DNA of 36,992 nucleotides, taken from NCBI GenBank assembly GCA_009694245.1, contig SHVO01000012.1:1-36992 (forward strand). Reading direction: 5' to 3'. The position numbers and the translations under genes are program-made. The notes under the pieces are model-generated. The model was not told the origin of the DNA. It made no database searches and saw only the letters and a program-made list of their open reading frames with translations. Source of the stretch: Rhodospirillaceae bacterium. Lineage in GTDB: Bacteria; Pseudomonadota; Alphaproteobacteria; Rhodospirillales; Rhodospirillaceae. Positions within the stretch are counted from its first letter, which is position 1; the number at the start of each line of letters is the position of its first letter. This document shows positions 7,750 through 14,166 of this stretch, one piece after another.

Positions 7750-8828
7750 CGGGTGAGCCCGCCCGTCACACTTGGAATGTCGAGCGCGGCGAAACCGTAA
7801 TGCTTCAGCCACGGCACGTCGGATTCGAAGAAGGTGCGCAGGTCGGGAATGCCGTACTTCAGCATGGCGATGCGCTCGATGCCCATGCCGGCGGCAAAGC
7901 CCTGGTAGACGTCGGGATCGAGGCCGCAGGCCTTGAGGACATTGGGATGCACCATGCCGCAGCCGAGGATTTCGAGCCAATCGCCGTGGTTGCCGATTTT
8001 CAGCTCGCCGCCCTTGCGCGAGCAGCCGATGTCCATTTCCGCCGACGGTTCGGTGAACGGGAAGTAGGAGGGGCGAAAGCGCGTCGTCAAATCCTCGACA
8101 CCGAAGTAAGTGCGCACGAATTCCTGCAGGCAGCCGCGCAGGTGACTCATATTGGTCTCGGTGTCGATGACCAGCAGTTCCACTTGGTGGAACATCGGTG
8201 TGTGCGTCATGTCGTAATCGCAGCGGTAGGTGCGCCCGGGAATGATCATGCGGATGGGCGGCTTTTGATTCATCATGGTTCGGATTTGCACCGGCGACGT
8301 ATGCGTGCGCAGGAGGTAGCGCTGCCCGTCTTCCGCCGGATCCAAGAAGAGCGTATCGTGCATTTCGCGGGCCGGATGCCCGGGCGGGAAATTCAGCGCC
8401 GTGAAATTGTGAAAGTCATCCTCGATATCGGGGCCGTCGGCGATCTCGAAGCCCATAACGCCAAAAATGGCCGCGACTTCCTCTATGGTTTGGCTGATGG
8501 GATGGAGCGTGCCCTTGGCCTCGGGGCGCACCGGCAGAGTCACGTCCATGCTCTCGGTCCCGAGGCGCGCGTCCAAAGCGGCGGCGTCGAATCCTTGCTT
8601 GCGGCGGTCGAGGGCTGCGGCGATTTCGTCCTTGAGCACATTCAATTTCTGCCCGAAGACTTTGCGGGCTTCCGGGGCCATGGCGCCCAGGTCCTTCATC
8701 AGGCCGGTGATGCGGCCTTTCTTGCCCAGCGCGGTGACGCGCACTTCGTCCAAGGCGGCGGCGTCTTTGGCCCCGGCTACGGCGGCCAAGAGTTCCTCGC
8801 GAAGCTGATCCGTGTTGTCGGTGGTCAT
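7746..8828 (-). CDS. pheS: phenylalanyl-tRNA synthetase alpha subunit
   Basis: The catalytic alpha subunit of PheRS, 360 residues. An N-terminal coiled-coil region (about 1-90, including [11 protein letters not shown]) precedes the class II synthetase core. Visible core features are [19 protein letters not shown] (motif 1 region), [22 protein letters not shown] and the C-terminal G-M-G-I-E-R-I-A-M (motif 3). Start ATG 8828 fits the usual N-terminus. A strong hairpin followed by a T-rich tract sits about 40 bases upstream, between rplT and pheS. The gene forms a cotranslated group with the ASCH gene and pheT. Confidence 0.97.
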
Positions 8829-8860
8829 GGCGCTTTTCGTCTTGGCATCTTCGTCACTTA

Positions 8861-8895
8861 AAAAGGAAAGGGGCTGCCTCTGGAGGCGGCCCCTT
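8861..8895 (-). terminator. hairpin with T-rich tail between rplT and pheS (attenuator-like)
   Basis: AAGGGGCTGCCTC (8868-8880) pairs with GAGGCGGCCCCTT (8883-8895), one position being a G-U pair, in a nearly perfect 12-13 bp stem with a tiny loop. On the minus strand it is followed by TTTTCCTTTTT. This looks like an intrinsic terminator lying inside the rpmI-rplT-pheS transcription unit, so partial readthrough or attenuation is likely. The 34 bases between rplT and the stem are too short for a Phe-rich leader peptide, and I see none. Confidence 0.7.
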
Positions 8896-8929
8896 GATCC
8901 ACGCTATTCGCAGAATTGACGAGGAGAAC

Positions 8930-9286
8930 TTAACCGAGCGCGGCTTGGGCCTGCTTCACCAGGTTGGCGAAGGTTTCGGGCTCCTTCAAGGCGAGATCGG
9001 CCAGAACTTTGCGATCCAGTTCGACACCCGCCTTCTTGAGCCCGTCAATAAATCGCGAATAGGTCAGCCCGAACGCGCGCACACCGGCGTTGATGCGCTG
9101 AATCCACAGCGAGCGGAAATCGCGCTTCTTCAGGCGGCGGTCGCGGTAGGCGTAGCGCAGCGCCTTTTCCAGGCGGTTGCGCGCGGGTTTGTAGGCGGTG
9201 GAATTGCGGCCGCGGAAGCCTTTGGTTTGCGCGAGGACCTTTTTGTGGCGGGCGTGTTTGGTAACGCCGCGTTTGACGCGTGACAT
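8930..9286 (-). CDS. rplT: 50S ribosomal protein L20
   Basis: 118 residues, the full usual length. The start M-S-R-V-K-R-G-V-T and the conserved [21 protein letters not shown] and R-I-N-A-G-V-R are typical of L20, an early-assembly 23S rRNA-binding protein. In several bacteria L20 also represses its own operon by binding the leader. The gene follows rpmI by 28 bases and precedes pheS across an attenuator-like hairpin. Confidence 0.98.
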
Positions 9287-9314
9287 GAGCGTGCTCCGTA
9301 AGGGGTTTCGGGAC

Positions 9315-9515
9315 TCAGCCGTAGGGCATGAAATTGCGCTTGATGATGATGCCGTCCGCTTTGGCGAGGACGCCCGTCCTGCGCGACGTCCGTTTCATCT
9401 TCTTGGGCTTACAGCCGAGGCAGTGGCGTTTATAAGCCGCGCCCGCCTTGACCTTGCCGGTACCGGTGATCCTGAACCGCTTTTTCGCGGCGCTCTTGGT
9501 CTTCATCTTGGGCAT
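9315..9515 (-). CDS. rpmI: 50S ribosomal protein L35
   Basis: A 66-residue basic protein. The sequence [14 protein letters not shown] and the C-terminal R-N-F-M-P-Y-G are diagnostic of L35. It is the first gene of the rpmI-rplT-pheS-ASCH-pheT(-lepA) unit here. A promoter-like pair and a nested leader fold lie upstream (9516-9723). In many bacteria infC is directly upstream; here doxX and an opposite-strand DUF3016 gene intervene. Confidence 0.97.
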
Positions 9516-9549
9516 TTTGGCGTCCTTTCATGCTGAACGACGGGTTTTT

Positions 9550-9617
9550 GGTCCCGGCCGGAGGCATGCCCTAAAAGTCTGATAGTGCTGACTTTTTAGC
9601 CCTTTGGCCGGTGGACC
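9550..9617 (-). promoter_or_regulatory. structured 5' leader of rpmI-rplT (candidate autoregulatory element)
   Basis: Two nested stems are visible. The outer one pairs 9550-9559 (ggtcccggcc) with 9606-9617 (ggccg, two-base bulge, ggacc). The inner one pairs 9571-9579 (ctaaaagtc) with 9590-9599 (gactttttag, one bulged base) around a 10-base loop. They lie in the presumed 170-base leader of rpmI. Feedback by L20 on its leader is established for E. coli and Bacillus. That this fold serves the same purpose here is inference. Confidence 0.45.
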
Positions 9618-9694
9618 CGGACACTCAGATCGGCGAGCGTTCGGCCCCTGATTCCAAGAGCGCCGGGACCAGTCCCAGCCGCTCAGAAGGCGCG

Positions 9695-9723
9695 CTTATA
9701 CCTAGTGAACCCAGGATTTGCAA
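9695..9723 (-). promoter_or_regulatory. sigma70-type promoter candidate for rpmI
   Basis: On the minus strand TTGCAA (9723-9718) and TATAAG (9700-9695) are separated by exactly 17 bases. The predicted start of transcription is near 9688, giving a leader of about 170 bases before rpmI. The -10 matches consensus at five of six positions and the -35 at four. Confidence 0.45.
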
Positions 9724-9801
9724 GGCGGGCGGCAACCATAATCTCACCATAAAGCCCGTTATACTTAAGCTCCCGACCCTCGATACCCAAGAGGTGCAGC
9801 C

Positions 9802-10320
9802 ATGCGTAATCTCAAATCTCTGATGGTCCTCGCGGCGCTCGCGGTGCCCATGACCGTCCCCGGGGTCGCCGGGGCGGCGGTAGAGGTGACCTTCACCAAC
9901 CCGGACAAATATATCGACGCCAGCTCGCGCGGTGAGGGGCGCCGCAAGGCCGACCCGGCGATTCTCGCCAAGTTGCGCCAGCATCTTGAGAAACAGGGCG
10001 AGCGTTACCTGAAGCCCGGCCAGACCCTAAGAGTCGAAGTGCTCGATCTCGATCTGGCGGGCCGCGTCGAATGGTGGCATTCCGCGGCCTACGACATTCG
10101 CTTCATGCGCGACATCGATTCACCATCCATGAAACTGCGGTATTCGCTCACAGAAAACGGCGCCACGCTGGCGAGCGGTGAAGAGCGGATTCTTGACCTT
10201 GGCTACTTGATGGGCATCAATTTGGGCCGCGGGTCCCAGGACTCGCTCAAATACGATAAGGCGATGTTGACCGATTGGTTTCGCAAGCGCTTCGCGAAAT
10301 TCGGTGCATCGGCCAGCTAA
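9802..10320 (+). CDS. DUF3016 family secreted protein
   Basis: A 172-residue protein with a Sec signal peptide (basic M-R-N-L-K, hydrophobic core, cleavage after about residue 25 at A-G-A). It matches the DUF3016 pattern: V-T-F-T-N-P-D-K-Y near the start, a predicted helix with L-R-Q-H-L, G-Q-T-L-R-V-E-V-L-D-L-D-L-A-G, and a C-terminal Y-D-K-A-M-L-T-D-W-F. The family has no known function; members are periplasmic or surface proteins. The gene is on the plus strand, divergent from rpmI and convergent with doxX (15-base gap). It therefore splits the usual infC-rpmI linkage. Confidence 0.85.
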   Translation: MRNLKSLMVLAALAVPMTVPGVAGAAVEVTFTNPDKYIDASSRGEGRRKADPAILAKLRQHLEKQGERYLKPGQTLRVEVLDLDLAGRVEWWHSAAYDIRFMRDIDSPSMKLRYSLTENGATLASGEERILDLGYLMGINLGRGSQDSLKYDKAMLTDWFRKRFAKFGASAS

Positions 10321-10335
10321 TTCCCTCAGCCCGCC

Positions 10336-10749
10336 TTAGGTAGGGTTCTTCTTGCGGGCAATGAAATTGTCCGCGCTCCAGGCCCCGCCGCCTGCGAAGA
10401 CGAAATACAGGTAGACGAAGCAAAACAGAATCGCGAGATCGCCACCGTTATTGATCGGAAAAAACTCGCGCGAGCCGTGGACCATGAAGTAGGCCACCGC
10501 CATCATGCCGCACAGGATGAAGGCCACGGGCCGGGTGAACAGGCCGATGGCAAAGAGCGCACCGCCCCCAGCTTCAAGCAGCCCAGCCGTGAGCATCAGT
10601 GGCGGCAATTCGCCCATCACCCGCGCCGGTTCCGGAAAGCCAAGAAGTTTCTGGGTGCCGTGCTGCATATAAAGCAGCGCGGTCACGATGCGTAAAACGC
10701 TCAAGATACGCGGCGCCCAGGGTGTCAAAACCGCTTCCAACTTCGACAT
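10336..10749 (-). CDS. DoxX family membrane protein
   Basis: 137 residues with four hydrophobic helices. It has the DoxX pattern: R-I-V-T-A-L-L-Y-M-Q-H-G-T-Q-K-L-L-G-F in helix 1, then G-L-L-E-A-G-G-G-A-L-F-A-I-G-L-F-T-R-P, A-Y-F-M-V-H and a C-terminal aromatic helix. DoxX proteins sit in the inner membrane; some take part in redox or thiol-stress complexes, but a role here cannot be assigned. It lies 69 bases downstream of infC on the same strand with no terminator seen between, so it is probably read from thrS-infC. Confidence 0.88.
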   Translation of the reverse strand: MSKLEAVLTPWAPRILSVLRIVTALLYMQHGTQKLLGFPEPARVMGELPPLMLTAGLLEAGGGALFAIGLFTRPVAFILCGMMAVAYFMVHGSREFFPINNGGDLAILFCFVYLYFVFAGGGAWSADNFIARKKNPT

Positions 10750-10818
10750 GCTTCCTACCTTGCTGCAAAACCCGCTGGAGACCCTTGCGAATCCCCAGCC
10801 GATGTTGTCCGGAAAAAT

Positions 10819-11358
10819 CTATTTCGGAGCGACGACCATCACGATCTGGCGACCCTCGGAGCGCGGCTCCTGCTCGACCTTAGCGTCATTCTCGAAGTCG
10901 GCCCTGACGCGCGCCAGTAGCTGGTGGCCCAACTCGACGTGCGCCATTTCGCGGCCGCGAAAACGTAAGGTCACCTTCACCTTGTCGCCCTCCTCAAGGA
11001 AACGGCGCATGGCGCGTATTTTCACATCGTAATCATGGTCGTCGATGTTGGGACGCAGCTTGATCTCCTTGACCTCGATGACCTTCTGCTTCTTGCGCGC
11101 CTCATTCTTGCGCTTTTGCTCCTCGTATTTGTACTTGCCGATGTCGAGGATTTTGCATACCGGTGGATCGGCATTGGGAGATATCTCCACCAAATCCAAT
11201 CCGGATTCTTCGGCTTTGCGCAAGGCTGTTTCGCGGTCTACGACCCCGACATTGACACCGTCGGCGTCAATCAGACGCACTGTGCGGTTGTCAATTTGAT
11301 GATTCATGCGCGGCCCATCGTTTTTGGACGCGGGCGCTTGTTGCTCGAACCTAGCTAT
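10819..11358 (-). CDS. infC: translation initiation factor IF-3, probable AUA start
   Basis: IF3 binds the 30S subunit, blocks subunit joining and rejects non-standard start codons. The C-terminal domain includes [12 protein letters not shown] and E-G-R-Q-I-V-M-V. The N-domain has V-R-L-I-D-A-D-G and [12 protein letters not shown]. Starting at the first ATG (11307) gives 162 residues and cuts off the conserved D-G-P-R before it. The frame continues upstream as [16 protein letters not shown], like other alphaproteobacterial IF3 N-termini. Its only sensible start is the ATA at 11358-11356, eight bases after an AGGAG (11371-11367). No ATG, GTG or TTG start lies between the upstream stop and this ATA. 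This gives 179 residues. E. coli infC uses AUU for autoregulation, so AUA here fits the known logic. Confidence 0.93.
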
Positions 11359-11366
11359 TTATCAAT

Positions 11367-11371
11367 CTCCT
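11367..11371 (-). promoter_or_regulatory. Shine-Dalgarno that fixes the infC AUA start
   Basis: AGGAG on the minus strand, eight bases before the ATA at 11358. It is about 60 bases from the first ATG at 11307, too far to serve it, and the ATG itself has no purine-rich site in front. Confidence 0.75.
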
Positions 11372-11394
11372 GTTGTTGTTTCCCACGAGGGTAT

Positions 11395-11427
11395 CGGGTC
11401 CGGTCCTCCCCAATGTACCGGCACCCG
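11395..11427 (-). promoter_or_regulatory. hairpin between thrS and infC
   Basis: ACCCG plus ACCGG pair with CCGGT plus CGGGT (10 bp, one bulged base) around a 12-base loop. The hairpin lies between the thrS stop (11440) and the infC ribosome binding site. No T run follows, so it is not a terminator; it could protect or control the infC mRNA. Confidence 0.45.
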
Positions 11428-11439
11428 GAAGGTTGCGAT

Positions 11440-13362
11440 TCACGAGCGCGCGCCGGGAACCGCAGCTTCCTTGGCAAGTCTATCGGTTGCTTCGTCCAGC
11501 GCAAGGACTTCTTGGGCCGCGCCGCCAAGACGGCGCAGGGCGACGCCACGCGTCTCCGCCTCCTTTTTACCTACAACCACAAGTATTGGCACCTTCGCGA
11601 GTGAGTGTTCCCGTACCTTGTAGTTGATCGTTTCATTGCGCAGGTCCACTTCGACTCGAAGGCCGTTGGCACGCAACGTCGCCGCGACCTCCTCGGCGTA
11701 GTCGTTGGCTTGATCGGTGATCGTGCACACCGTTGCCTGTACCGGCGCGAGCCACAGCGGAAATTTACCGGCGTAATTTTCCACCAGGATGCCGAAGAAG
11801 CGCTCGAACGAGCCAAGAATCGCCCGGTGAAGCATCACCGGCCGATGTTTCCGCCCGTCTTCCCCAACATATTCTGCCCCAAGGCGCTCGGGCAGGACGA
11901 AATCCGCCTGGAAAGTGCCGCATTGCCAGTCGCGGCCAATGGCATCGCGCAGGATGAAGTCGAGTTTTGGCCCATAGAACGCACCGTCGCCTGAATTCAA
12001 TTTAGTTTCCAGCCCGGCGGCGGCCGTCGAGTCGCGGAGCGCGCTCTCGGCCTTGTCCCAGATTTCATCGGAGCCCGCGCGGACCGGGGGACGATCGGAA
12101 AATAGAACACGGAGATCGTTGAACCCGAGATCGGCATAGACCACGCGGAGGAGGTCGATGAACTTCTTGGTCTCGGATTTGATCTGGTCCTCGGTGCAGA
12201 AGATATGTGCATCGTCTTGCACAAAGGCGCGCACCCGCATCAATCCATGCAGTGCGCCCGAGGCTTCGTTGCGATGACAGCTGCCGAACTCGGCTAGGCG
12301 CAGGGGCAGGTCGCGATAGCTTCTAATTCCTTGGTTATAGATTTGCACGTGGCCCGGGCAGTTCATCGGCTTGACCGCGAGAACTCGGTCCTCGGACTCG
12401 GAGATGAACATGTTCTCGCGGTATTTCTCCCAATGGCCGGACTTTTCCCACAAGACACGGTCCATGAGCAGCGGCGTGTTGACTTCCACATAGCCGGCGT
12501 CTTCAAGGCGGCGGCGCAGGTAATTCTGCAAGGCCCTGTACACGGCCCAGCCTTTGGGATGCCAGAACACCGCGCCTTGCGCTTCCTCCTGCAAATGGAA
12601 CAGGTCCATTTCCTTGCCGAGCCGGCGGTGATCGCGCTTCTCGGCTTCTTCCAGCATGGTGAGATATTCGCCCAGCTGTTTTTCGTCGGCCCAGGCGGTG
12701 CCGTAGATCCGATGCAGCATGGCGTTGTTGGAATCGCCGCGCCAATAGGCGCCGGCCACCTTCGTCAGTTTGAAGGACTTGCCGAGCTTGCCGGTGGACG
12801 GCAGATGCGGACCCAGGCACAGGTCCAACCACTTCTCGCCCTGGCGATAAATACTGATGGGCGCGCTCTCGGGCAGGTCGGCGATGATCTCGGCTTTATA
12901 GTGTTCGCCGATACCCTTAAAATATGCGATGGCTTTCGCGCGTTCCCACACTTCGCGCGCGATAGGCTCATCGCGGTCGACGATCTCGCGCATCCTGGCT
13001 TCGATCTTCGGAAGATCATCGGCCGTGAAGGGCTCGGCGCGCGCGAAGTCGTAGTAGAATCCATTCTCAATGGCCGGGCCAATAGTGACTTGCGTGCCGG
13101 GATAGAGTTCCTGCACGGCTTCGGCCATCACGTGGGCGGCGTCGTGACGCAGGAGCGCGAGGGCATCGGGGTCCTTGCGTGTGACGATGGCCACGCTTGC
13201 GTCCTCGCCGAGGGGCAAGAGCAAATCCCGCATCTCGCCATTGACCTTAACCGCCAGTGCAGCCTTGGCCAGGCCTGGACCAATATCGGCAGCCAGATCG
13301 GCGCCGGTTACGGGTCGGTCGAAGCGGCGCACGCTGCCGTCGGGTAAAGTGATCGCAACCAT
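11440..13362 (-). CDS. thrS: threonyl-tRNA synthetase
   Basis: 640 residues, the normal ThrRS length; it charges tRNA-Thr. It starts with a TGS domain ([10 protein letters not shown], 1-60). The second-domain editing site has H-D-A-A-H at 73-77. The class II core carries M-N-C-P-G-H (zinc and substrate site), [11 protein letters not shown] motif 2 and the motif 3 region near [10 protein letters not shown]. An anticodon-binding domain (L-A-P-V-Q-A-T-V) closes it. ATG 13362 matches the family start. It is first in the thrS-infC-doxX run. A TTGACA -35-like sequence at 13435-13430 on the minus strand may belong to its promoter, but the -10 is weak. Confidence 0.98.
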
Positions 13363-13458
13363 GGTTTTAAAATGCTCTTCGTCGGCAAATTGGATTCAAG
13401 CGGTCCTATGTCGATTGTCCAAGCGAGCTTGTCAAGCAAGCCCGGCGTGGGCGCATTT

Positions 13459-14166
13459 CTAGGCGAAAGGATTGAGCCTTTTTAACCAGCGGGAGAAATT
13501 CGCGGCCCGCGTTTTGTGGGCGACCTTGGCCTCATCGGTCAACCAGGCAATTTGCAGAACCTTGCGCTCTCCAGCAAAGGGGGGGTGGCCATGCCAGGAG
13601 TTTTCCGTCCGCCGAAAGCCGAAAACCCGGCCCAGGACCGGACTGATTTCAGCGGAATAGTCCTCGATATCACGGCTGCTCCGCAAAACCCTAAGGCAGC
13701 CGGCACGAGAATCCAGCCAGCAGTCATTGAGATAGATCAGCACCGTCGCGACCTTGCTGACGCTGTCGGTATGGATGCGTCCGTCGGAAGCGGCTGAACG
13801 ATGGCGCAACGTCACCAGCCGGGGCCGGTTCACGAGGTCTAGGCCGAGTTTGTCACCGACGGCAGTGCTGAAACCTGGGTCGTTGACGTCGGCGATCAGG
13901 TCGTGGAAAACGCCGGTTATGAGAAGGTCGCCCACCGGAAAGAAGCCGGTCTCGTCGATCGGCGGGAAATCCCGCGCCATCGCCTCCGCCGCGGCATTGA
14001 GGGCGTTGCTGCCAATGAAGTGGCGATAGGGTTCATGATGTAGCGTGGCCGAAGTAATGGCCTCAAGATTGACGACGTGCACGGGTGCTGAAATCTCCGA
14101 ATTGTAGGCCCCGGTAGTATATTCCATCGCCGCGACGGGTCGACCAGAGCTTTTGGTTAGGGCCAT
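13459..14166 (-). CDS. 2-oxoglutarate/Fe(II)-dependent oxygenase family protein
   Basis: 235 residues with the jelly-roll dioxygenase signature: the H-T-D iron motif at residues 132-134, a distal histidine at 192 or 194 (W-H-G-H) and an arginine at 201 suited to bind 2-oxoglutarate. The strands V-A-T-V-L-I-Y-L-N-D and G-R-V-F-G-F fit between them. No signal peptide or membrane segment is seen. It is the last gene of the GT4-GT9 operon (8 bases after the GT9 stop). A hydroxylase acting on a sugar, lipid or protein linked to that glycan is possible, but no substrate can be assigned. Confidence 0.78.
   Translation of the reverse strand: MALTKSSGRPVAAMEYTTGAYNSEISAPVHVVNLEAITSATLHHEPYRHFIGSNALNAAAEAMARDFPPIDETGFFPVGDLLITGVFHDLIADVNDPGFSTAVGDKLGLDLVNRPRLVTLRHRSAASDGRIHTDSVSKVATVLIYLNDCWLDSRAGCLRVLRSSRDIEDYSAEISPVLGRVFGFRRTENSWHGHPPFAGERKVLQIAWLTDEAKVAHKTRAANFSRWLKRLNPFA

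Follow-up and report, generated by a model that had tools for sequence, protein, structure and literature searches.

The infC gene in the stretch of Rhodospirillaceae DNA analysed here (36,992 nucleotides, referred to throughout as the window) is very probably translated from an AUA codon placed behind a strong Shine-Dalgarno (SD) sequence, with its product IF3 limiting its own synthesis as in E. coli; both initiation at this codon in cells and the repression are what we infer from sequence and analogy. The observations that support this reading are the position of the codon, its SD, the codon-like conservation of the segment that follows it, and the near-absence of AUG, GUG and UUG calls across a sample of the class. 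What is new here is that AUA is the commonest predicted infC start in that sample of the Alphaproteobacteria, as against AUC and AUU in other Pseudomonadota.

The infC locus and its candidate start codon

The gene occupies positions 10819..11358 of the minus strand, stop codon included, and encodes an IF3 of 179 residues that matches the TIGR00168 equivalog model with 243.8 bits (cut-off 60) and contains both IF3 Pfam domains at full length, IF3_N (PF05198) at residues 18–87 and IF3_C (PF00707) at residues 94–179; it thus carries the full set of features by which we recognise an IF3 gene. The candidate start is the ATA at 11356..11358 (minus strand). Reading the minus strand from 11371 to 11356, the order is AGGAG, then ATTGATAA, then ATA, with the AGGAG (11367..11371) lying 8 nt before the codon. 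Two tandem in-frame stops, TGA (11364–11362) and TAA (11361–11359), together filling 11359..11364, abut the ATA directly, and a start further upstream in the infC frame is thereby excluded. Downstream, codons 2–17 of the long form (11308..11355) lead to an internal methionine codon, the ATG at 11305..11307, which lies 17 codons from the ATA and is the first canonical codon in the frame, with no ATG, GTG or TTG in between; it is the codon that an ATG-based gene finder would be expected to pick. The arrangement that an earlier note on this DNA had described can be read directly from the sequence, and no near-cognate codon ahead of ATG 11307 other than the ATA has an SD. A start at an ATG that is common in relatives 11 codons before the IF3 domain was rejected: this ATG is absent from the window, and where it is present its SD is mostly weak among the loci examined.

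The predicted duplex with the SD has an energy of −7.4 kcal/mol for the ATA versus −2.6 for ATG 11307. As a control, the same scoring chose the ATG of rplT and of the two genes that lie between infC and rpmI, and for thrS it gave no convincing site (ATC −3.9, ATG −2.1). The combination of a five-base SD word and an ATA 5–8 nt behind it occurs nine times on the two strands of the window, which corresponds to a chance expectation of 0.0024 in 20 in-frame codons. A feature that counts against the AUA reading is that in a predicted fold of the 170-nt leader its SD is partly paired (unpaired 0.11–0.77). In the same fold two of the three SD bases of ATG 11307 are paired, and this, together with the weakness of that SD, argues against translation from ATG 11307 with the 17 upstream codons serving as a leader, a reading that has in its favour a canonical codon and two IF3 domains that are complete from that point. 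The earlier note had held that a start at ATG 11307 leaves IF3 short, which is correct in so far as the N-terminal tail with its D-G-P-R would be lost; the folded domains would be intact, since IF3_N begins only at residue 18 of the long form.

The gene for threonyl-tRNA synthetase, thrS (11440..13362, minus strand; Pfam TGS, tRNA_SAD, tRNA-synt_2b and HGTP_anticodon), precedes infC by 81 nt on the same strand, an arrangement that we take to be that of E. coli, where thrS is directly upstream of infC. On the other side, the presumed E. coli order infC-rpmI-rplT is interrupted, and the window does not have an operon of that type: infC is separated from rpmI (9336–9512, minus strand) and rplT (8930–9286, minus strand) by a DoxX gene (10336–10749, minus strand) and an opposed DUF3016 gene (9802–10320, plus strand). 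A search of positions 8000–14000 of the window against Rfam gave no match at the gathering score.

Conservation among close relatives

Comparison within the genus strongly favours the AUA start that the earlier note had proposed. A caller based on SD energy puts the start at ATA in 17 of the 18 same-genus copies and at ATC in the remaining one, and among the 20 close copies formed by these, the window and L002, a second infC on contig C11 of the window's own assembly, the start is ATA in 18 and ATC in two, with AGGAGA at the SD in every one. One of the 18 same-genus genomes searched, G018, gave no IF3 match. The segment immediately downstream of the start evolves as protein-coding sequence does: pairwise differences at codon positions 1, 2 and 3 are 0.024, 0.055 and 0.380 in codons 2–9, as compared to 0.209, 0.212 and 0.382 at the same three positions in the 24 nt upstream of the start, and the distance from the start to the IF3 domain varies by whole codons only (16, 17 or 19).

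The position of ATG 11307 behaves differently, with ATG in 11 of the 20 copies, GTC in five and ACC in four. The earlier note had named, as the pattern that would tell against its claim, relatives with an ATG here and no conserved residues upstream; instead nine copies have no start codon at this position, and conservation of the residues upstream shows codon periodicity. Retention of methionine in the other 11 copies is a point for translation from ATG 11307, but with upstream codons that change as protein does and so many copies lacking the ATG we consider that reading very unlikely. A second alternative is that both starts are used, AUA yielding the long IF3 and ATG 11307 a minor short form. 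Nothing in the sequence is incompatible with this, as the ATG is in frame and is kept in just over half of the copies; however, its SD is weak, and with nine of the 20 copies lacking a start codon there, a short form could not have been retained across the genus. We regard the use of both starts as unlikely, and preferentially assign initiation to the AUA.

The L002 copy reads TGA TAC ATC GCT AGA at its start, and with ATC at the start and ACC at the position of ATG 11307 it is free of canonical codons from the stop up to and including that position. Positions 1–1708 of L002 carry a second thrS-infC pair, whose IF3 is 88% identical to that of the window over the matched part and which ends at the contig edge; this pair probably comes from another strain or species whose DNA is also in the assembly. 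We also note that the nearest named record (L033, 88% identity) is titled Candidatus Marinimicrobia, a title that looks wrong because the compared stretch is identical to that of a same-genus genome (L119).

Start codons across the Alphaproteobacteria

For a wider survey we gathered 361 infC loci: two from the window's own assembly, 142 from its genus, family and order, 80 from named organisms (the best 80 of at least 588 loci), 74 from elsewhere in the class, and 63 from outside the class but within the phylum. The class set came from 114 genomes searched, of which 113 gave a match and 70 contributed loci, and the phylum set from 120 genomes searched, all with a match, contributing 67 new loci, four of them from the class. 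Removal of ten duplicates and two truncated loci left 349, of which 286 are alphaproteobacterial and 63 belong to other classes, with class assigned from named relatives and from the taxonomy lines of annotated records; a 26-residue IF3 fragment (G071:C528) was left out. The energy caller looks back up to 30 codons, allows ATA, ATC, ATT, CTG and ACG as well as ATG, GTG and TTG, takes the site with the lowest SD energy, and returns no call above −4. An internal ATG was the call for six distinct alphaproteobacterial loci with an earlier caller that used exact SD words; the energy caller moves four of these to an isoleucine codon and L282 to ACG, and leaves L146 at ATG.

With the energy caller the 286 alphaproteobacterial loci divide into 203 with ATA, 54 with ATC, 13 with ATT, four with CTG, two each with ACG and TTG, one with ATG, and seven with no call, such that ATA, ATC, ATT and CTG account for 274 and canonical codons for three. 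A non-canonical infC start is therefore kept in relatives while the exact codon varies, and the called starts mark AUA as a habit of the clade and not an oddity of the window genome. It follows that the earlier note's description of AUA as a rarer codon does not hold as a peculiarity of this genome, given that no other codon is called as often in the class. In the 63 loci of other classes the order is different, with ATC in 25, ATT in 17, ATA in 13, ACG in three, GTG in one and no call in four. A codon-blind count gives a similar picture: in 347 loci, the single in-frame codon 5–7 nt downstream of the best SD word is ATA 198 times, ATC 61 times and ATT 10 times (all groups with duplicates kept, from the 361 minus two truncated loci and 12 without an SD word). 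It has also to be considered that a sequencing or assembly error turned an ATG into ATA in the window, which belongs to a draft assembly of 63 contigs that is 76.5% complete; recurrence of the ATA in 17 of the 18 same-genus copies and in most of the class makes this extremely improbable.

The preference for ATA at the start is not that of the gene body. By the exact-SD-word caller, ATA makes up 94% of isoleucine-type starts in the genus, 87% in the family, 71% in the order, 67% in the rest of the class and 80% in the named set, while its share of isoleucine codons in the gene bodies is 1.2%, 4.5%, 3.4%, 7.5% and 2.7%, respectively; in other classes it is 4.9% of body isoleucine codons and 20% of isoleucine-type starts. 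The two copies from the window's own assembly have ATA at three of 15 body isoleucine codons, so that it is the relatives that carry this contrast. No canonical codon at all is present from the upstream stop (or from 40 codons back) through the position of ATG 11307 inclusive in 134 of the 349 loci; ATG 11307 itself keeps the window out of this group. A FastTree phylogeny of 285 proteins requires a minimum of 55 start-codon changes when every labelled tip is counted, or 50 when only ATA, ATC, ATT and CTG tips are, although these counts are inflated by tree errors and leave out the seven loci without a call. ATG is nearly absent among the class calls even though it is a single transition away from ATA.

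The departures from this pattern are few. The TTG calls are L189, from the same order, and L285. In L146, from the same family, the internal ATG has a better SD (−8.7) than the ATC (−7.4), and in each of the two ACG calls (L196 and L282) an ATC or ATA is nearly as good. Among the loci with no site below −4, L230 and L320 retain an ATC in the usual position behind a weak SD, and L254, L288 and L321, from alphaproteobacterial genomes of 1.2–1.6 Mb, have an in-frame ATG without a good SD; L239 and L248 also have no site below −4. The three loci from small genomes may use ATG as the infC start, in which case the feedback loop may be lost there. The four CTG codons stand at the infC start behind the same SD, in two Pseudoroseomonas, one Roseomonas and one other member of the Acetobacteraceae (L090, L091, L101 and L110).

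Proposed feedback by IF3 and comparison with known systems

The fMet-tRNA would pair with AUA with a mismatch at the third position, and IF3 would be expected to destabilise such complexes. Because of this destabilisation infC would be poorly initiated when IF3 is plentiful, and it would be released when IF3 is scarce, giving a negative feedback loop identical to the one that E. coli infC owes to its AUU start. Across the class the start of infC appears to be kept at codons, mostly AUA, against which IF3 ought to discriminate, with AUG hardly ever seen, which suggests that the loop is under selection well beyond E. coli. A simpler proposal is that AUA is merely a weak start that holds IF3 low without any feedback. 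A Staphylococcus aureus study reports that in poor medium ccpN, cvfC1 and citZ reporters with AUA or AUU starts are expressed at about 10% of the level given by AUG, and the ccpN reporter at up to 30% in rich medium (PMC13009471), which makes a purely static effect plausible. On the other side, the ATT start of E. coli infC is tied to IF3 feedback in a second paper (PMC5472188), and the codons that are kept lie almost entirely outside ATG, GTG and TTG, the set that IF3 accepts; we give the static proposal a low probability and favour feedback.

The difference between classes in the choice of codon is accompanied by one in a putative initiator-tRNA motif, which raises the question of how the two are matched. 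A 15-base motif that we take to be the anticodon stem of the initiator tRNA in its A29-U41 form is present in 73 of the 114 genomes searched for the class; in the phylum set, 24 of 31 alphaproteobacteria and none of the 89 others have it. The alternative form, with three G-C pairs, occurs in one of the 114 and, within the phylum set, in none of the 31 and 70 of the 89; neither form was found in the window's own incomplete genome. Between classes, ATA among ATA, ATC and ATT starts differs sharply (29 of 43 vs 8 of 40, p = 2e-5), a comparison that is confounded with descent and that sets aside loci with no call or with TTG, GTG or ACG, and one G-C-stem alphaproteobacterium with an ATA start. Within the class, the share is 29 of 43 in genomes with the A-U stem and 10 of 20 in those with neither stem (Fisher p = 0.27). 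As stem motif and codon are not associated within the class, shared descent is enough to explain the difference between classes, and we think it unlikely that the Alphaproteobacteria retuned the IF3 loop to AUA together with an initiator tRNA changed to A-U from G-C at 29-41. If they did, the strength of IF3 discrimination would be set jointly by the weaker stem and the change of near-cognate codon.

Six annotated public records from Alphaproteobacteria were inspected among the matches listed (20 of 76); three of them have infC annotated at ATA, one at ATT and two at an internal ATG. The last two, Azospirillum lipoferum 4B and A. oryzae (L369 and L373), are annotated from an ATG inside IF3_N, with an SD and ATA present upstream, and illustrate how gene finders restricted to ATG, GTG and TTG truncate IF3.

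Unusual infC starts are described in several papers: AUU in E. coli and B. subtilis (PMC1805508), with the ATT of E. coli closing a feedback loop and the ATC of Streptomyces misannotated in most species (PMC5472188), ATT in Xanthomonas from proteomics (PMC5559785), and AUA in S. aureus, where ribosomes arrested by retapamulin (Ribo-Ret) are found at the codon and the authors expect autoregulation as in E. coli (PMC13009471). Our search of the accessible text of the open-licence literature turned up no mention of infC starting at AUA in the Alphaproteobacteria, nor of an AUA majority for infC across the class. Given the S. aureus case and the public ATA and ATT records, the start of the window infC is not new in kind. 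The alphaproteobacterial genes annotated at ATA or ATT (Azospirillum, Falsirhodobacter and Sinorhizobium) have the same kind of codon at the equivalent place. The E. coli gene is alike in encoding IF3, in starting outside AUG, GUG and UUG and in having thrS directly upstream; it differs in using AUU where the window has AUA, and feedback in the window is proposed by analogy with it. The closest parallel in codon and gene together is S. aureus infC, which is backed by retapamulin footprints; however, S. aureus is not an alphaproteobacterium, and its authors stress extended SD pairing near the start (PMC13009471).
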